From Anderseniella sp. (GTDB lineage: Bacteria > Pseudomonadota > Alphaproteobacteria > Rhizobiales > Aestuariivirgaceae), in contig JANQOK010000023.1 of assembly GCA_028289645.1 (NCBI GenBank), forward strand, positions 124,001-188,000: a stretch of 64,000 nucleotides of DNA, given 5' to 3'. Below are positions 11,098 to 58,420 of the stretch, one piece after another (positions within the stretch are counted from its first letter, which is position 1; each line of letters starts with the position of its first letter). Under the pieces are notes generated by a model. It did not search any database. It was not told where the DNA came from and was given only the letters and a program-made list of their open reading frames with translations. The position numbers and the translations under genes are program-made.

Positions 11098-11637
11098 ATG
11101 AACATGCGTAGTTGGGTACAGACCGTGGCAGCGGGGGCAATGCTGATCGTCGGAGCCAATACCGGCCAGGCGCAACAGGCGCAGAAGGCGCCGGCATCAA
11201 CTGTCAAGACGGGCTCAGTCATAACCGGTTGGAACGTAAGTTGCGCGACGCCGAAATCGGCGGGCAAACTGGTTTGTGAAGTCAATAACTCTGTGCTGGT
11301 AAAGCCAAGCAACTCGCGATTTTTGGCGGTTGCCATCCGGCCCAGCGGCGCAGCGGACAATAGAGTTCTGGTTGCTTCGCTGCCGCATGGTGTGTTGTTC
11401 ACAGCCGGTGTCAGCCTGAAGATAGATGGTCGCGATGCCGGTAAGCTTGAAATGCTGACAAGTGATCAGAGCGGGGCCTACGCCCGCACGCCGATGTCAG
11501 CGCAGCTTGCTGCAGCGATGAAAGCCGGAAAGACGCTCACCGTCGTGTTCGACGGCACCAATGCGAAGCGCTTCACTGTAGGACTGCCGCTGACAGGATT
11601 CACCGCTGCGTTCAACAAGATGTCCGGTGGTGGCTGA
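11098..11637 (+). CDS. Invasion-associated locus B (IalB) family periplasmic protein
   Basis: A 179-residue protein with a signal peptide (about residues 1-25, ending GQAQQ). The mature part has the IalB layout: GWNVSCATPKSAGKLVCEV with a cysteine pair, a middle VSLKIDGRDAGKLEM, and a C-terminal LTVVFDGTNAKRFTVGLPLTGFTAAF. IalB was named from Bartonella, where it promotes erythrocyte entry, but homologues are widespread in free-living alphaproteobacteria, and the role here is unknown. ATG 11098 has a weak AGGGCC upstream. It sits between the autotransporter relic and an outer-membrane barrel gene, so the area is rich in envelope genes. Confidence 0.8.
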   Translation: MNMRSWVQTVAAGAMLIVGANTGQAQQAQKAPASTVKTGSVITGWNVSCATPKSAGKLVCEVNNSVLVKPSNSRFLAVAIRPSGAADNRVLVASLPHGVLFTAGVSLKIDGRDAGKLEMLTSDQSGAYARTPMSAQLAAAMKAGKTLTVVFDGTNAKRFTVGLPLTGFTAAFNKMSGGG

Positions 11638-11909
11638 CCGGTTCCGTATCAGTTCCCAACATGTGTCTCGCGCCAAGTCGACTCTCGTCCAGCGGCGGGT
11701 TTGAACAGACCCGGCCGTGTGTCCGTCGTTCACCCGGCTGGCGCGGGTCAGCCGTTTGCTGTTGTGGTGAAGTTCGTTGCGCCGGCTTGAACTGGCCAAT
11801 CAGGAACAAGCGATAGCAAATTTTGCCGCCGGCGCTGAACCGCAAGGTGCGGCTTCCCGTTTCATAGACAATGCCATTGATGCTTTGAATCCAAGGGGAG
11901 TCTGAACTC

Positions 11910-50452: not shown

Positions 50453-50655
50453 TGAAAGAGGTTCCTTCCGTGATGTCGTTAGGTCAACCTTATGCCAACA
50501 AACCGGCAATTGTTGGGAGCAGGTCGGCCTTGAGGGCAGCGGATTCTTGACGCTGCGTTATCTTACGTGCGTTACTTGTGCTTCCCGGGGACGGCAGCAG
50601 GCCTGTCCATGCTGCCGCACTGCCGGGCCGTGTCAGCAATTGCCGGAGTGAGCCA

Positions 50656-51072
50656 ATGGCCGATGAGAACCCGAATGTCACCATCCTGCAGAGCGTCTAT
50701 GCCGAATGGCACCGGACCAAGGGCGATCCGTCGGCCATACTCGACATCCTGGCGGACGAGGTTCGCTGGGGCTCGGCGGCAGACGGCAAGCCCGGCATGG
50801 ATTTCGCCAGGAAGCGCGCCAGCAAAGACGAGGTCGCCGGGTACTTCCGCGACCTGGTGAACGAGTGGTCGATGGAGTTTTTCCACGTCAACGAGATGGT
50901 CGCACAGGGCGGCCGTGTCGTGGTCCTGTGCGAATGCGCCTGGACCAACAAGCGCACCGGTAACCACATAAAACTGCCGAAAGTGGATGTCTGGTATCTC
51001 GAAGACGGCAAGGCGAGCGAGTTCATGGAGTATTTCGACACCCACGCCGCCGTGGAAGCGGCGGCGGGGTAG
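50656..51072 (+). CDS. SnoaL-like (NTF2-fold) protein
   Basis: A 138-residue cytosolic protein with the NTF2/SnoaL alpha+beta layout: NVTILQSVYAEWHRTKGDPSAILDILADEVRWGSA, KDEVAGYFRDLVNEWSMEFFHVNEMVAQGGRVVVLCECAWTNKRTGN, then KVDVWYLEDGKASEFMEYFDTHAAVEA. Members include polyketide cyclases and isomerases, but the wide family gives no substrate. A weak GGAG precedes ATG 50656. It is the last GC-rich gene before the AT-rich island. Confidence 0.78.
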   Translation: MADENPNVTILQSVYAEWHRTKGDPSAILDILADEVRWGSAADGKPGMDFARKRASKDEVAGYFRDLVNEWSMEFFHVNEMVAQGGRVVVLCECAWTNKRTGNHIKLPKVDVWYLEDGKASEFMEYFDTHAAVEAAAG

Positions 51073-51664
51073 GGGATAGTTGTTGGAACGGCGCAGTGGC
51101 CGCCGAGATTTTGGTGCGATTGCTTTTCGGTCAGTCGGCAGGTCGAGCACAGGTGTTTATGAACGAGCACATCTTTTGCGTTGTATAGTTTGTGCCGTCA
51201 CTTTCGGCCCAATCCGGCCATTCGCCATCGCAAGTCCCGGCATCCGATTACGGACATTCGCCGCACCTGCGAAGTGTTGGTCAACCTGATGTCGGCAATT
51301 CGGACATTTTTACCAAATGTCGGTCGCCGCTGACGTCCGGTTTTACCCCCTAGAGAAGCCCTGCGTCAGAGCTCTTTTTTGTCTGTTCTTTTGCCGATTG
51401 TCGCAACTTGTTCATTGGGGACAACGGGCCATCATTGGTCATCTCCTGTTTGCAATTGACAGCAGAAGCGCCCCATTATTTTCACAAATATCGTCGTGTT
51501 CGCTTTGGTCGTGAGAAAGTAATCGCCTTACCGAAGTAGGAAAAACTACAAATTTCAGGTATGTTTCGAACAAAACTTTCTTCCACAATCAGCACCCTGT
51601 CCTTGCATGTTTGAAGATTTTTCATGACACTCGCGGACTTGATGTGAGCTGAGGAGTCGCGTCA
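51073..51664. other. Intergenic region at the left edge of the island
   Basis: No convincing gene is seen. Base composition moves from GC-rich to AT-rich within this stretch. The left part holds repeated pieces of CGGACATT/CGGCCATTCG wording (about 51200-51320) of the kind left by decayed repeats. No attachment site or integrase remnant is recognised. Confidence 0.5.
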
Positions 51665-52318
51665 ATGCATGAAGATGGTCATAGGGTAGTATACTATTCG
51701 GATAAAGTAACAGCTGCGATAGTGGCAGCAGTCGTCAGCGGCATTGTGAGTTTGTATATATACTTTGGTCAGATAGAAAATGAAAACGCCGTTCTTATGT
51801 TGCAAAAATCAGAATTAGCAATAAATGAAAAACTGGCAGAAATTAAAGAAATAGAAAATCAAAACGCAATTAAAACGTCAAATTTAGAAAACAATTTATT
51901 GAAATTAGAATTGCAAAAAGAACACTCTAGAAATATCTGGATTGAAATACGAAAGCGAATTGATCGGATGATGCCTATTTCAACAACCGATGTGAGTAAT
52001 GAATTGGAAAAATTTGAATCATATATATTTGAGCTTGATAAACACATTGATGTGAATTTCGAAAATAGAAAGTTAGTAAATTTAATAGATCAACTTTATC
52101 CATATGCTAGAAATTTGGAAAAATGCCATAGTGAAGCAAGATATTATGCATTCAACATTACGAGCAGGGTGCTGGTTGGACCAAAAAATATTTGTCATCA
52201 AGGAAACATTAACGAGAGGACAAAGTGCTTAAGTCGTCATTTGGCGGGAGGAGAATACGACGGTGTGTCGCACGTTGGATTAAGTAAATCTGTTATTAAT
52301 TGCGCGCCGAAATTTTAG
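51665..52318 (+). CDS. Membrane-anchored coiled-coil protein of unknown function
   Basis: A 217-residue protein with one membrane helix near the N-terminus (AAIVAAVVSGIVSLYIYFG, about 17-35). A long coiled coil follows (residues 38-85, rich in Glu, Lys, Asn, Leu: EKLAEIKEIENQN), and then a soluble part with three cysteines. No family is recognised. The gene is strongly AT-rich. GAGGAG lies ahead of ATG 51665. Membrane-anchored coiled coils of this sort are common in defence islands, but this one cannot be assigned. Confidence 0.6.
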   Translation: MHEDGHRVVYYSDKVTAAIVAAVVSGIVSLYIYFGQIENENAVLMLQKSELAINEKLAEIKEIENQNAIKTSNLENNLLKLELQKEHSRNIWIEIRKRIDRMMPISTTDVSNELEKFESYIFELDKHIDVNFENRKLVNLIDQLYPYARNLEKCHSEARYYAFNITSRVLVGPKNICHQGNINERTKCLSRHLAGGEYDGVSHVGLSKSVINCAPKF

Positions 52319-52762
52319 ATGACTCGTACATCAGTGCGTATCAAATGCGCCAATGCAGCCATTAGCTACCTGCCAATTCCGTACGATCTCCGAAACTTGC
52401 CGTTCGGCCGATGTCGCCCCTAATAGCGCAAACCGGAAGTGCCGCGAAATCGGCTGGAGGTCCAAGAAGGGCTCAGAGCGTCCATATGTTGAAACGCAAC
52501 ACCCAAACGTGTCGATTGCTGAAAACGGCCCAGAGCTGACACTTATTGTATTCAAGATCGCTGCGACTCAGCATACTCTAATGCAGCCATTCAAAGAGAT
52601 GCTCGGCCTGCGTATAGCGGCCACCACTCTAGGCACAATGTTCTCAAACTTGTTAAACCCGATTGTCGCATCTGCTGAGTGACATATTTACCCATCAGCT
52701 TTTGGATCGCATATTAATATTGCGAGATCAAAAAGTGCCAGTTTACCGCAAAGTGATCATAT
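52319..52762. other. Intergenic region between island genes
   Basis: A GC-richer patch (about 52340-52640) with no believable gene. The one open frame across it has no protein-like character. It contains wording such as CGTTCGGCCGATGTCGCCCC, similar in style to the left-edge region, so it may be a decayed repeat. A TATTAATATTGCG stretch at about 52711-52725 may be a promoter for the NTPase gene. Confidence 0.4.
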
Positions 52763-55072
52763 ATGACCGAGCGTTATGATTTCGAAAATCTATCTCCGAT
52801 TGAGTTCGAGTCGCTCTGTACTGATCTATTGAGCACGGACACTGGCTTCCGTTTTGAACGATTTTCTGAAGGTCCAGATGGTGGGATCGATGGCAGACAC
52901 AGCTCCGCAAAAGGCAACATTATTCTTCAAGCGAAGCACTATAAAAATAGTAGTTGGGAGGATTTAAAATCTGCAGCAAGGCGAGAAAGCCAAAACGTTA
53001 ATGGGCTCAACCCAACCGAATACTATTTTCTAACGTCGCAGCGATTGAACCCCGCTCGCAAAAATACACTAATGGAATGTCTGGACCACAGCTCTGTTGA
53101 GGCCGCCAATATTTGGGGACGGGCCGAAATTAATGATCGGCTACGCGTCCATGGTAAAGTGGAAAAACGGCATATAAAACTCTGGCTTTCAAGTGCTGCT
53201 GTTCTTGAGCATGTGTTAAATAACAATATCGCTGTTTTCACGGAGGCAACCCAAGACGAGATTGAACGAATTCTCAAGGTGTTTGTAGTCAATCCTAGTC
53301 TCCAGAAGGCAGCAAAAGTTCTCGAAGATCGACACTGCCTGATTGTTTCCGGTCCTCCAGGCGTTGGGAAAACCACACTAGCCCAGGTTTTAGCAGCGGA
53401 ATATTGTGAGGAAGATTGGGAACTTGTCGCAGTCAGCACGATAAAGGATGCGCTTGATGCTTTTAGTTCTGATGGAATGCAAGTTTTTGTTTTTGATGAT
53501 TTTTTAGGAAAAATCAAACTCGATCCTCAGTCGTTGGCAAGAGATGAAGGGCGAATTGCACGTTTCATCGACATGGTGGCAAAGCGAGGAAACAAAAGGT
53601 TCATTCTCACCACTCGTTCTTATGTATTCCAAGCCGCTCGCCACATTTCTGAAGCTCTGGACGAGGAACATATCGATCTGTCAGAGCTGGTGCTTGATCT
53701 GGAGGCATATAACCGAGAAATAAAGGCGAGAATTTTGTATAACCACCTTTATCATTCCGAAATTGATGAAGACGCTATCAGCTCGCTTCTTTCCTCGGGA
53801 CATGTCCAGAAGATAGTCGATCATCCAAATTATATGCCACGGATCATCCAGTGGATGACAGATCATCTACGTGTCAAAGATATAGAGCCGTCGCAATATC
53901 CGAAACGCTTCGTTGAAACGCTAAATCATCCACACAAGATTTGGGAAAAGGCTTTCAGGAAGCATATCAGCCCTCAAGCTCGGTTGCTGCTTGTTTGCAT
54001 GTATTTTTCAGAAACCGAACGTTTCCCGAACCCGGGAATTAACTCTGAAAAACTTAAACCATTTTTTGACCAGGCCATTCATAAATCTGACCAACAGAGT
54101 TCAGATAATTTCAATGAGCGCCTATTTGAGGAAACTCTCAGAGAGGTGAAATCTTCCTTCATTGTCGTGGACGGCGGGCAGATAAACTTTATAAACCCCT
54201 CTGTATTGGACTTCCTATCTAAAGAAGTGGATAACTTGCGCGTCCTCGAATTGCTTTCATCAGCCGTGGTTAGAGTTGACGTCGCAAAATCTCTGTGGAG
54301 CGCTGCAAACAGGCGGTTCAAAGACCAGCCCACCACGCTTAAGAAAATCGCCAAGTCTATGCAGAAGGCTATTCAGTCAAACAACGTCACCGGACATATG
54401 CCGCTGCACGAACTTGCCGATTTGATTGGTGAATTGCTGCTTGTTGCGAACGAATCCAAATTTTTGATGTTTGTTCGGCAAGGCGGCTTGAAAAGTACTT
54501 TTTGGACAAATGAAGTAGAACTAATCTCATTGGTTGAGGATCTTGAAGAGGGGCGATTTCGAAAATTTCCGCATGCTTCCGCATATGCCAGATTCCTTCG
54601 CAGCCAATTATACAACTACGTGGCAAAGCGGGAGTACCTGCTTGAGCTTGATGAGATTGCGACCTTGGCTGAAAGATTGTCTGATAGCGTTTTAGAGTTT
54701 GCCGACGGATTTTTCGATTGTTTCAAAGAAGCTGCGCAAGAATCTATAGAAGCTCTCGATCCAAGCTATGAATCTCCTGATAGTCGGGAAAGCGCGTTAG
54801 GTGATTGGCTTGATAAAATTGAGACAATAGAAATGTATTTTCCGGAAGTGGTCGATAGTTGGAAAAAGCACGAAATTGAAGAGATATTGTATGGCTATGA
54901 ACAGCGTGCGGAACAGGAAATGGAACATTATCGTGATGAACGTCACCTCACTCGTTCTTCCGCTAGCAATAACAAAGCTGAAATGAATGAACGTTCTTCA
55001 ACGCGTGGATCGCAATCAATGTTTCCAGACAGAGATCTGGGTGCAATGTTCGCGTCTTTGAAGAAATCATAG
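52763..55072 (+). CDS. Mrr-like nuclease fused to an nSTAND3-type NTPase
   Basis: A 769-residue protein. Residues 10-65 are an Mrr/REase-like PD-(D/E)xK domain: helix with E16, D43 in GPDGGID and Q56-A-K58 in ILQAKHY. Residues 190-330 are a STAND-type NTPase: Walker A GPPGVGKTT (197-205), Walker B VFVFDDFLG (241-249) and sensor LTTRSYVF with R285. The FDDFLG wording points to nSTAND3. The remaining 430 residues are helical with no clear TPR or WD repeats and end in a charged, disordered tail. Such proteins act as phage sensors that cut DNA once triggered (Avs-like). Codon use is AT-rich. ATG 52763 has a weak ribosome site. Confidence 0.82.
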   Translation: MTERYDFENLSPIEFESLCTDLLSTDTGFRFERFSEGPDGGIDGRHSSAKGNIILQAKHYKNSSWEDLKSAARRESQNVNGLNPTEYYFLTSQRLNPARKNTLMECLDHSSVEAANIWGRAEINDRLRVHGKVEKRHIKLWLSSAAVLEHVLNNNIAVFTEATQDEIERILKVFVVNPSLQKAAKVLEDRHCLIVSGPPGVGKTTLAQVLAAEYCEEDWELVAVSTIKDALDAFSSDGMQVFVFDDFLGKIKLDPQSLARDEGRIARFIDMVAKRGNKRFILTTRSYVFQAARHISEALDEEHIDLSELVLDLEAYNREIKARILYNHLYHSEIDEDAISSLLSSGHVQKIVDHPNYMPRIIQWMTDHLRVKDIEPSQYPKRFVETLNHPHKIWEKAFRKHISPQARLLLVCMYFSETERFPNPGINSEKLKPFFDQAIHKSDQQSSDNFNERLFEETLREVKSSFIVVDGGQINFINPSVLDFLSKEVDNLRVLELLSSAVVRVDVAKSLWSAANRRFKDQPTTLKKIAKSMQKAIQSNNVTGHMPLHELADLIGELLLVANESKFLMFVRQGGLKSTFWTNEVELISLVEDLEEGRFRKFPHASAYARFLRSQLYNYVAKREYLLELDEIATLAERLSDSVLEFADGFFDCFKEAAQESIEALDPSYESPDSRESALGDWLDKIETIEMYFPEVVDSWKKHEIEEILYGYEQRAEQEMEHYRDERHLTRSSASNNKAEMNERSSTRGSQSMFPDRDLGAMFASLKKS

Positions 55073-55217
55073 CAAAGTCATCTGTACTTGCGCCTATCTT
55101 ACGCCGCACCCATGGTCCGCTAGCCAGCGCTTGACCAGAATCGCGATAAGATCACGATAGGCAATCTAATATAGTTGAGTAGTTCGATTATGTCGTCTAA
55201 ATTAATGAAAATTCATT

Positions 55218-55997
55218 ATGGGTAGAACTGAAATGATATTTGAAAGATCAATTCTGTCTCGAATAATGCCTTCCAGCGTTCCCAATTTTGCTGAACCGGA
55301 ATTTAGATACGCAAATGGGGTCGAGATGTGGGATAGAGAATACAGCTCTCTAGCAACAATACCCTCATCACATAGATCACAACCGTCACATGCTGTGAAA
55401 CTTTCACTTTCCTCGCTCCGATTGCGACAGGGGTCTGCAGTGGACCTTGGGTGCGGGAACGGACGGAATGCCAAGTTCCTTGCGAAACTTGGGTTTGAAG
55501 TAAGCGCACTTGATTTTTCAGAACGCGCTCTAGATTTGACACAACACCTGATAGCAAATGAAAACACAAGACTAGACATAACACCAATCCTTCATGACAT
55601 CCGGGATGGCTTGCCATTTCGAGATAGTGAGACAGATCTTGTTTTGGATGCTTATTGCTTGTGCCATTTTATAGATGAAATTGGATATAAAAAGGCTCTT
55701 GATGAGGTGTCGCGAATTTTACGGCCAGGTGGAATATATTTGAAAATACACTTGGATTCTTCAGACGATTACTATTTGCAGAGATCGATTGAAAAACGAT
55801 CATTTGGACACATCAGTTACGATCCGGCAAATCAATTCCTGAAACGGCACTACGGCGCGGAAAAACTTCATGACGAACTAAGAAGTAATTTTGATCTTAT
55901 GCGTGTTTGGAGGGTTAGATTTGACGATGTTGTTAGGGGAGCAAAGGTGAGCAGAAGCGTTTTTGCCATCGCTCTGACGCGAAAGCCGCATGAGTAA
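55218..55997 (+). CDS. Class I SAM-dependent methyltransferase
   Basis: A 259-residue methyltransferase. Motif I is AVDLGCGNGRNAKFLA (75-89), followed by FEVSALDFSERAL, a motif II-like DGLPFRDSETDLVLDAYCLCHFID, and SRILRPGGIYLKIH. It resembles small-molecule methyltransferases (TehB/UbiE-like), with no DNA methylase catalytic motif (no NPPY or PC). It is AT-rich like its neighbours. The last eight bases overlap the next membrane protein gene, so the two are surely co-transcribed; the NTPase gene ends 145 bases upstream. Confidence 0.85.
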   Translation: MGRTEMIFERSILSRIMPSSVPNFAEPEFRYANGVEMWDREYSSLATIPSSHRSQPSHAVKLSLSSLRLRQGSAVDLGCGNGRNAKFLAKLGFEVSALDFSERALDLTQHLIANENTRLDITPILHDIRDGLPFRDSETDLVLDAYCLCHFIDEIGYKKALDEVSRILRPGGIYLKIHLDSSDDYYLQRSIEKRSFGHISYDPANQFLKRHYGAEKLHDELRSNFDLMRVWRVRFDDVVRGAKVSRSVFAIALTRKPHE

Positions 55998-56676
55998 CGG
56001 TCGTAATTTCGACCCGTCTACCGGGCAGTTTATCGATCCGATGTTTGCTGTAATTATCGCTGCAGCCATATCCGAAACTGTTGTTCAGTGGGTTACAACC
56101 GGACCTGCGCCAAGCATTTTTGAGATCAGCGTGGTTTCAGTAGGCTATGTCAATCTGCTCTTGAGCTGGTTTGGGTATCACAAATCAGTTTTAAAAAAAC
56201 CGATTAGAGGAAGTTTGCGATTTATAATAACTGTGATTCTTCTTCCTTTGTATTTGTTGACAATTATTTTATTCGCAGGAGATTTTTTTGTTATTTCAGC
56301 AACTTATTTTCTTATATTTTTTCTTTGGACTATTTGGGAATATTTCAAAGGAATCGAGCATGGCGAACGTAAAGGTTTCTGGAATCTGCAGTTCAGGACA
56401 TTTAACATAATAATTTACTCAAGCACTATTTTACAGATGGGATTTTTTTATTTTTCTGGATTCATGGCAAATTATGTTTCTAAAGCTACGCTAGATTGGA
56501 GTTGTCTCGCTGCAGTTGCCTTCTCCATTGTTTTTTTGCGTGTTTCTAAGAGTGCGAAGCGGACGGATACTCCCGCGGGGCGCATACGTTCTGAGTTTGG
56601 GTCCTTGTTCTTTGGAAGCGCAAATACCGAACAAGCCAATCCGAGCGTCGAAAACAAAATCGGAACTGAGACATAA
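55990..56676 (+). CDS. Multi-span membrane protein of the island
   Basis: A 228-residue protein with about six predicted membrane helices (starting PMFAVIIAAAISETVVQWV) and a soluble C-terminal tail of about 40 residues. The region FLWTIWEYFKGIEHGERKGFW between helices is polar and holds aromatic and acidic residues. No family is recognised. It starts eight bases inside the methyltransferase gene, which fixes the start at 55990 and indicates linked function. Confidence 0.65.
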   Translation: MSNGRNFDPSTGQFIDPMFAVIIAAAISETVVQWVTTGPAPSIFEISVVSVGYVNLLLSWFGYHKSVLKKPIRGSLRFIITVILLPLYLLTIILFAGDFFVISATYFLIFFLWTIWEYFKGIEHGERKGFWNLQFRTFNIIIYSSTILQMGFFYFSGFMANYVSKATLDWSCLAAVAFSIVFLRVSKSAKRTDTPAGRIRSEFGSLFFGSANTEQANPSVENKIGTET

Positions 56677-57092
56677 TTTTCAAAAGCAAACCCGTCTTGG
56701 GAGTGCATTCTGGGAAAACATGCCGTTTCAGGCTGCAGGCTGATAACATCAGAGCAAAAACCTCTGACGAAAGTCTTGGTCTCTGGAGGTTGTGGCAATT
56801 GGACCATTCCACCGGCGTTTAAGAGTTTTGGAACCGGCAGCCTTATGGAACACGCCAATTGGAGCCGGCATATCTGGTAGCAAGTGAATTGGAGTTACCA
56901 TCTTTCCGACATAGAATTCTCCATGCCTGTGGCGGTATATTGGCTTTTGGGTTCCACAATGCTGTGAAAGCCTCCAGTGTTATGGTAGCAGCACTGGACG
57001 AAGTTCCGCTCGGTCGCAAGACTGTCAAAGTCTCGCATGCCAATTGTTTGCAGGATTTTGAGACAATTGGCCTTGGTTTCTGAATTCAGTCC
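56677..57092. other. Intergenic region at the right edge of the island
   Basis: Nothing assignable. Composition returns to GC-rich within it. A frame on the - strand (56843-57043, about 66 residues) begins TVLRPSGTSSSAATITLEAFTALW and could be a gene relic, but no family is recognised. No direct repeat with the left edge was found. Confidence 0.4.
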
Positions 57093-57590
57093 TTAAGGCT
57101 GAACGACCAGCCAAGCCTCTTTGAAAGTGTGCTCCTCCAGGTTCCCACCGTCCCCAATACGATCCACCACAGCAAACAGCGCATCGTCCACCAGCGGTGT
57201 CAGCACGCCGTGCCAGGTGTCGCGGTGGTAGTTCACGCCCTGGCCGGGTCTGGTGAGGAAGGCAAGGGGTGTGCCGGGCTTGCCGCTGTCGTCCGCTGCG
57301 ACGATTACCATGAACGGGTCGGCGGACATGGGCAGGAAAGCCTGGGAGCCCAGCGGATGGCGCTCCATCAGGTCGAGGGTGTAGGGCAGGGTGTGGGCTT
57401 TTGAGCGGAACAGGCTTATGCCTGCGCGCGCGCCTTCGCCTGTGAAATCCAAGTTGGCGAGGTCGTGGAAGCGGCCGCAGAGGCCGGCGTTGATGATATT
57501 GTCGGGCTCGCCCACGGCCTCCAGCACGTCGCCGAACGGGGCGAAGCTTTCAGCCGTCAGCGGTTGCAGGACGATGCGGCGGTCGCTCAT
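57093..57590 (-). CDS. allA: Ureidoglycolate lyase
   Basis: A 165-residue protein that splits ureidoglycolate into glyoxylate and urea. It begins RRIVLQPLTAESFAPFGDVLE and has ISLFRSKAHTLPYTLDLMERHPLGSQAFLPM, FLTRPGQGVNYHRDTWHGVLTPL, typical of AllA. ATG 57590 overlaps the AllE stop by four bases; the open frame extends further, but that part belongs to AllE. It is the last gene of the puuE/uraD-allE-allA operon. Confidence 0.92.
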   Translation of the reverse strand: MSDRRIVLQPLTAESFAPFGDVLEAVGEPDNIINAGLCGRFHDLANLDFTGEGARAGISLFRSKAHTLPYTLDLMERHPLGSQAFLPMSADPFMVIVAADDSGKPGTPLAFLTRPGQGVNYHRDTWHGVLTPLVDDALFAVVDRIGDGGNLEEHTFKEAWLVVQP

Positions 57591-58420
57591 GTGGCGTTGC
57601 CCGTCAGCGTCATATGGCGGTTGACGTCCTTGTAGAGCAGATAGCGGAACTTGCCCGGCCCGCCGGCATAGCAGGCCTGCGGGCAGAAGGCGCGCAGCCA
57701 CATGAAGTCGCCGGCCTCGACCTCGACCCAGTCCTCGTTGAGCCGGTACACCGCCTTGCCTTCCAGCACATAGAGCCCGTGCTCCATGACATGGGTCTCC
57801 AGGAACGGGATCACCGCGCCGGGCTCAAAGGTGACGATGTTGACGTGCATGTCGTGGCGCACATCATCCGGGTCGACGAAGCGGGTCGTGGCCCACTTGC
57901 CGTCGGTGTCGGGCATCGCCACGGGTTCAACGTCATGGTCACTGGTCACGAAGGCCTCGGGTACGTCGATGCCGTCGACTTTCTGGTAAGCCTTGCGGAT
58001 CCAGTGGAAGCGCACCGGGGCTTTCGATGTGTTGTGCACCTGCCAGTTGCTGCCGGGCGGGATGTAGGCATAGCCGCCTGAGGTGAGCGAGTGTGCGGCG
58101 CCGTCAACGGTCAGGGCGAGTTCGCCGTCGACCACGAACAGCACGGCCTGGGCGTTAGGCTCAGTTTCCGGCCGGTCGCTGCCGCCGCCGGGTGCGATTT
58201 CAGCGATATACTGCGAGAAGGTCTCGGCAAAGCCCGACAGGGGCCGCGCCAGCACCCAGAACCGTGCACCGGTCCAGTGCGGCAGGTTGCTGGTGACGAT
58301 GTCGCTCATCACGCCCTTGGGGATGACCGCGTAAGCCGTCTTGAACACGGCGCGGCCGGTGAGCAACTGGCTCTGCGGCGGCAGGCCGCCGGTGGGCGCA
58401 TAGTAGGTGGCATCGGTCAT
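57587..58420 (-). CDS. allE: (S)-ureidoglycine aminohydrolase
   Basis: A 277-residue bicupin that converts ureidoglycine to ureidoglycolate and ammonia. It begins with TYYAPTGGLPPQSQLLTGRAVFKTAYAVIPKGVM, the usual AllE opening. Metal-site wording in the second cupin is VNIVTFEPGAVIPFLETHVMEHGLYVLEGKAVYRLN, then WLRAFCPQACYAGG and YLLYKDVNRHM. The start overlaps the stop of the upstream gene and its stop overlaps the allA start, each as ATGA. Confidence 0.93.
   Translation of the reverse strand: MTDATYYAPTGGLPPQSQLLTGRAVFKTAYAVIPKGVMSDIVTSNLPHWTGARFWVLARPLSGFAETFSQYIAEIAPGGGSDRPETEPNAQAVLFVVDGELALTVDGAAHSLTSGGYAYIPPGSNWQVHNTSKAPVRFHWIRKAYQKVDGIDVPEAFVTSDHDVEPVAMPDTDGKWATTRFVDPDDVRHDMHVNIVTFEPGAVIPFLETHVMEHGLYVLEGKAVYRLNEDWVEVEAGDFMWLRAFCPQACYAGGPGKFRYLLYKDVNRHMTLTGNAT

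Follow-up and report, generated by a model that had tools for sequence, protein, structure and literature searches.

Does an island of foreign genes carry one defence system or several? The question is posed by an AT-rich island in a 64,000-nucleotide stretch of DNA from Anderseniella sp. (contig JANQOK010000023.1), the whole of which is called the window. Four plus-strand genes reside in the island. They code for an orphan protein of 217 amino acids (aa), an Mrr nuclease-nSTAND3 NTPase, a class I S-adenosylmethionine (SAM)-dependent methyltransferase and a membrane protein, and they are the four that a reading of the sequence alone had listed. This sequence-only reading offered two interpretations, a new multi-gene version of Avs or a separate system formed by methyltransferase and membrane protein. 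Here we report that the new part of the island is the pair of methyltransferase and predicted channel, not the NTPase. The features are collected in Table 1.

Table 1. Features of the island, its flanks and one related locus. Positions are those of the window unless a locus is named.
Feature	Position	Strand	Remarks
AT-rich island	51073..57092	.	GC profile; flanked by SnoaL-like and ureidoglycolate lyase genes
SnoaL-like gene, left flank	50578-51072		Domain match
217-aa open reading frame (ORF)	51665..52318	+	Orphan, placed in neither module; one N-terminal hydrophobic segment
Fifth ORF, 109 aa	52353-52682		Probably non-coding; no library match; GC at third codon positions (GC3) 0.56
Mrr nuclease-nSTAND3 NTPase, 769 aa	52763..55072	+	Pfam and PADLOC PDC-S73 match
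Class I SAM-dependent methyltransferase, 259 aa	55218..55997 (start possibly 55233)	+	First gene of the pair
Gene overlap ATGAGTAA, 8 nt	55990..55997	+	Methyltransferase stop / channel start
Six-helix membrane protein, 228 aa	55990..56676	+	Second gene of the pair; predicted TMEM175-like channel fold
Ureidoglycolate lyase gene, right flank	57093-57701	-	Domain match
Lamassu-like LmuA-LmuC-LmuB operon	L004:10889-14313		Bowmanella denitrificans, directly downstream of the pair

Results

A methyltransferase and a predicted TMEM175-like channel

The assignment of the first gene of the pair as a methyltransferase was confirmed by a match to Methyltransf_25 (Pfam, 3.8e-18) and an intact SAM motif, DLGCGNGRNA, at residue 76. 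Two further conserved stretches, IPSSxR and GHISxDPxN, are peculiar to the family. The predicted structure (pLDDT 90.3) resembles small-molecule, TehB-type and tRNA methyltransferases alike and so points to no single substrate. PADLOC returned a match to mad2 at 4e-16 which covered part of the model only. Four of four methyltransferases from outside the pair family scored in a similar range (6e-16 to 6e-22); pair member P0085 scored better (7e-26). With partial model cover and outside enzymes scoring alike, a relation to MADS through mad2 was rejected as a generic methyltransferase signal.

The second gene had been described as an overlapping multi-span membrane protein. It is predicted to have six helices, and the 8-nt overlap with the methyltransferase gene suggests coupled translation. 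The best fold match was the TMEM175 channel family, and the predicted model has the six-helix TMEM175 fold. CmTMEM175 (5vre), MtTMEM175 (6hd8) and the island protein have in common a Phe and an Asp in helix 1, a Trp and a His in helix 2 and four further columns; the island protein has FID (14-16), A20, V21 (predicted gate), A24, W60 and H64. TMEM175 starts helix 1 with RxxxFSD, whereas the island protein has FID and lacks the conserved Arg. Among 33 homologues Phe and Asp were invariant (33/33), the Ser was Ile in 32 and Val in one, and in place of Arg there was Ser (29) or Thr (4). In the register of this alignment to TMEM175, the threonine layer of K+ selectivity (Thr38 of MtTMEM175) is Ala in 32 of the 33 and Thr in one. 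None of the 33 family members matched Pfam PF06736 at E up to 1, and the channel had no match among viral structure models at E up to 0.001. From the modelled fold we predict a TMEM175-like cation channel. P0131-P0137 make up a sister family, recognisable by the motifs [LI]DPLFAV and SW[FI]GYHxS; locus searches with these more distant membrane relatives gave none.

The tehAB genes code for a membrane protein and a class I methyltransferase. Possibly the island pair works like TehA-TehB, as a detoxification module: the methyltransferase would methylate a metalloid or a small toxin, and the membrane protein would assist in its transport. TehB, heterocyclic-toxin and toxoflavin methyltransferases were indeed among the sequence and structure matches of the enzyme. 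However, matches at the level of TehB are common among class I methyltransferases. Further, neither the membrane protein nor any of the 33 homologues matched SLAC1 (Pfam), presumably the family of TehA, and the best fold match was a channel family. We consider detoxification unlikely, although it is the strongest competitor together with the addiction module discussed below; these two are the main rivals to a role in defence.

The pair is conserved and rare

Protein searches returned 57 channel and 67 methyltransferase matches. Of the 57 channel matches, 21 could be paired with a methyltransferase from among the 36 top matches (23 of 70 after 13 further channel rows were included); pairing was judged by equal size of the longest contigs, which is indirect evidence. 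The pair was then read as DNA in a betaproteobacterial metagenome-assembled genome (L002), in Asticcacaulis (L003) and in Bowmanella (L004), with identical gene order. The genes overlap by 8 nt in Asticcacaulis and are, by ORF calls, 9 nt (L002) and 19 nt (L004) apart. Order and close spacing are kept across alpha-, beta- and gammaproteobacterial loci. Identities within the two protein families are about 32-58%, and the core motifs are strictly invariant. The GC content of the pair was clearly lower than that of the rest of the locus in all three (0.385 v 0.568, 0.388 v 0.624 and 0.342 v 0.464).

The pair is rare. Three loci came out of a pattern-limited scan of 84,980 species genomes, and within the order the pair was present in 1 of 397 genomes, the window's own. 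Named protein matches came from Pseudomonas, Asticcacaulis, Bowmanella and others. No contig-matched methyltransferase turned up for the channel-bearing Pseudomonas protein clusters. The pair was absent from two genera taken for Pseudomonadaceae because of OprF matches (0/25 and 0/398), a weak negative as no known positive was included. Relatives of the channel were found neither in IMG/VR (profile A1) nor in 72,556 plasmids (query homologue P0006) nor in phages (query homologue P0026), and the DNA of the pair had no match in E. coli genomes. The methyltransferase had one close relative in IMG/VR (L008), plus ten distant ones taken as generic; in the plasmid records it had partial matches below 60% identity only (query homologue P0060).

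These data bear on the question whether methyltransferase and channel form a toxin-antitoxin or addiction module, i.e. a channel-like toxin restrained by the methyltransferase without any sensing of infection. The overlap or short distance of the genes, the predicted pore encoded by the second of them, the scattered occurrence and the AT-rich composition fit such a module as well as they fit a defence system. Yet addiction modules abound on plasmids, and there the pair had no relative apart from the partial methyltransferase matches. We therefore regard addiction as improbable, somewhat more so than detoxification. Addiction and immune roles overlap, and the former does not exclude defence.

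The pair is named by no PADLOC model. It was not described in the literature found on nSTAND3/AVAST, TMEM175 and methyltransferase two-gene defence, of which the top-ranked part of a large body was covered.

The NTPase belongs to a listed family and stands alone at the loci sampled

An Mrr-nSTAND3-type defence NTPase had been proposed, and both domains were recovered (Mrr_cat 1.4e-9, nSTAND3 1.2e-48; Pfam). DGGID (residues 39-43) and LQAK (55-58) are taken to be a QxK-type nuclease motif, GPPGVGKT at 197 a Walker A and VFVFDDF at 241 a Walker B-like motif. The protein aligned in full with the PADLOC model PDC-S73 (E 7.4e-145; residues 4-745 against positions 3-740 of the 752 in the model). By sequence, the NTPase is thus a member of an already listed single-gene candidate defence family.

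The likeness to Avs goes no further than the nSTAND3 domain (PF20720), which is reported in Avs5 as well (PMC12931631). At E up to 1, 13 PADLOC families were matched and none of them is named Avs, with the Avs content of the library not listed. The N-terminal 180 residues (52763-53312) are a nuclease module found also at the beginning of Aga_TIR-PNTD proteins of PADLOC (E 4e-44).

Matches to the NTPase occurred in 55 plasmid records, and seven of these were read as loci. Two matches were obtained in 385 genomes of the class; one was the window's own genome, the other was read as a chromosomal locus. With tblastn at E up to 1e-3, neither the methyltransferase nor the channel of the pair turned up at any of these eight loci, for which about 4-9 kb to either side were covered. 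The annotated neighbours were plasmid replication genes, HipA, AbiEii and others. Among the loci sampled the NTPase is a stand-alone gene. In one genome (G598) the PDC-S73 gene is located between two near-identical copies of a 181-aa ORF (L043:6245-6790 and 11188-11733), as if it had arrived with a duplication of about 4.9 kb.

Conversely, no NTPase was detected near the three other pair loci (0/3; 7-10 kb on each side, in L002 1.5 kb upstream up to the contig end). Conserved linkage of pair and NTPase, the lack of which, together with a lack of phage protection, the sequence-only reading had named as a refutation, fails in this sample. The four genes do have one strand, one island and a similar composition in common, as would be expected of one new multi-gene Avs-like system. 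The homologues, however, occur apart at 8 of 8 and 3 of 3 loci, 145 bp separate NTPase and methyltransferase, and the first ORF has no relatives in plasmid, IMG/VR or order-genome searches. A single four-gene system was rejected on account of the absent linkage, and we hold it to be very improbable. The alternative of a separate methyltransferase/membrane-protein system is supported, as the pair is found without the NTPase and carries no PADLOC name. Because each occurs without the other at the remaining loci read, we view the island as two independent modules, the PDC-S73 NTPase and a pair which likely acts in phage defence. We would give this overall interpretation an even chance.

Neighbours of the pair

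What do the neighbours of the pair tell about its function? In the window it adjoins the PDC-S73 NTPase. In Bowmanella the pair is followed, after about 225 bp, by three same-strand genes which match Lamassu LmuA (E 5e-23), LmuC (3e-18) and LmuB (6e-95), and a HipA protein is encoded upstream. Neighbours such as PDC-S73 and Lamassu also argue against detoxification. In the betaproteobacterium an Abi_2 protein is encoded 2.4 kb from the pair on the opposite strand, behind an ORF that we read as helicase-like. The Asticcacaulis locus lends no support to a role in defence: by ORF reading, a small P-loop gene and gatA/gatB-like genes are its neighbours. Two settings clearly favour defence, one does so weakly and one does not; the number is small and the evidence suggestive.

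The methyltransferase homologue of L008 is situated at the end of an IMG/VR contig which stops before any channel gene would be visible. Its GC is 0.489 v 0.551 for the rest of the locus. Shortly before it, at L008:7689-10726, we read UmuD/UmuC-like ORFs.

The island and its site

Foreign composition, as claimed in the sequence-only reading, was borne out. GC was 0.43-0.45 in all six 1-kb bins from 51 to 57 kb, compared to 0.58-0.67 in 10 kb at left and 7 kb at right. GC3 was 0.30-0.43 for the four island genes versus 0.81 for the left flanking gene. In a congener (G041) the two flanks recur at identities of 80% and 84% and enclose 4.8 kb of other DNA. Therefore, the site carries varying DNA across members of the genus. 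The congener's version (L041:7498-12246) contains transporter-, isochorismatase-, oxygenase- and LysR-like ORFs, named from sequence reading, and in addition a 210-aa ORF of lower GC. In genome G039 the contig stops at the island site. A site which takes in various genes would also fit a chance pile-up of foreign genes without a common role, the pair being left over from metabolism or housekeeping. Strictly invariant motifs at the identities given above would not be retained in such a remnant, and we think this reading improbable, more so than addiction.

No terminal repeat stood out at the island ends, Rfam gave no match, and promoter- and terminator-like sites were at chance level. The 145-nt gap before the pair had no notable RNA fold (z -1.05). 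The stretch 56677-57092 is single-copy in the genome and had no match among plasmids.

The first gene had been called a membrane-anchored coiled coil; one strong hydrophobic segment was found at residues 15-33. Its GC is very low (0.34). The sole library matches were weak, CutA at 0.002 (NCBIfam, far under cut-off) and phrog_4038 at 0.008. No relative was detected in the 72,556 plasmids, in IMG/VR (where the search reached no further than close relatives) or, its own genome apart, in 297 genomes of the order. The fifth ORF had no match in Pfam, PADLOC, NCBIfam or PHROGs and its GC3 resembles neither neighbour; for these reasons we judged it probably non-coding.

Discussion

The pair is likely an abortive-type defence system with the channel as effector which PADLOC does not name. 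How might it operate? The membrane protein is predicted to form a tetrameric channel in which helix 1 lines the pore and Val21 serves as a hydrophobic gate. Because Ala24 sits where the selectivity threonine of TMEM175 would be, we predict a cation leak with little preference for K+. The methyltransferase would be the controller and may set the gate through methylation, either of a small ligand or of the channel protein. On phage infection, perhaps via loss of SAM or of the methylated product, the channel would open, the membrane would be depolarised and phage production would stop. Alternatively, the methyltransferase might produce an opening signal upon infection. We lean towards a gate which is shut until disturbed, since the enzyme is encoded by the leading gene and overlap or close spacing couples the two. 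In its boldest form this would be a new immune class. The SAM-dependent methyltransferase would be the guard of a non-selective channel of TMEM175 type, which would be shut as long as SAM and the methylated product are at hand; phage take-over of the methyl-donor pool would open the channel and collapse the membrane potential. This proposal is speculative, and we consider it unlikely.

Pairs of an enzyme and a membrane effector are a recurring design of bacterial immunity, in which mostly nucleotide signals are at work in the examples known. To our knowledge no TMEM175-fold channel has been described as an immune effector before. If the proposal is true, the pair adds methylation chemistry and this channel family to the design. 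The family also offers natural proteins of diverse sequence that have Ala where the selectivity threonine would be. With two genes and about 1.5 kb, the module is open to direct testing of phage protection, toxicity and conductance.

Comparison with known systems

The island NTPase differs from PDC-S73 in nothing of note; only its neighbourhood is unlike that of the other loci read. Avs5 (AVAST type 5) combines a Sir2 effector with a repeat sensor at the C-terminus (PMC12931631), whereas the island protein has an Mrr nuclease in 769 aa. In TehA-TehB, the TehB half has its counterpart among the matches of the methyltransferase; the membrane protein has no match to TehA/SLAC1. TMEM175 is known from the regulation of lysosomal pH and has a link to Parkinson disease (PMC7176437); the island protein differs by its coupling to a methyltransferase gene. 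In CBASS and Panoptes a nucleotide-synthesising enzyme is adjacent to a membrane effector. No cyclase or mCpol was present among the five island ORFs scanned, and a class I methyltransferase takes that place. Closest in architecture is Panoptes (optSE), like the island pair a two-gene operon of a small enzyme and a membrane effector; there the effector is proposed to be set free when the product of the enzyme is lost (PMC12657218). Panoptes itself uses the nucleotide-making mCpol and another membrane effector, whereas the enzyme of the island pair is a methyltransferase.
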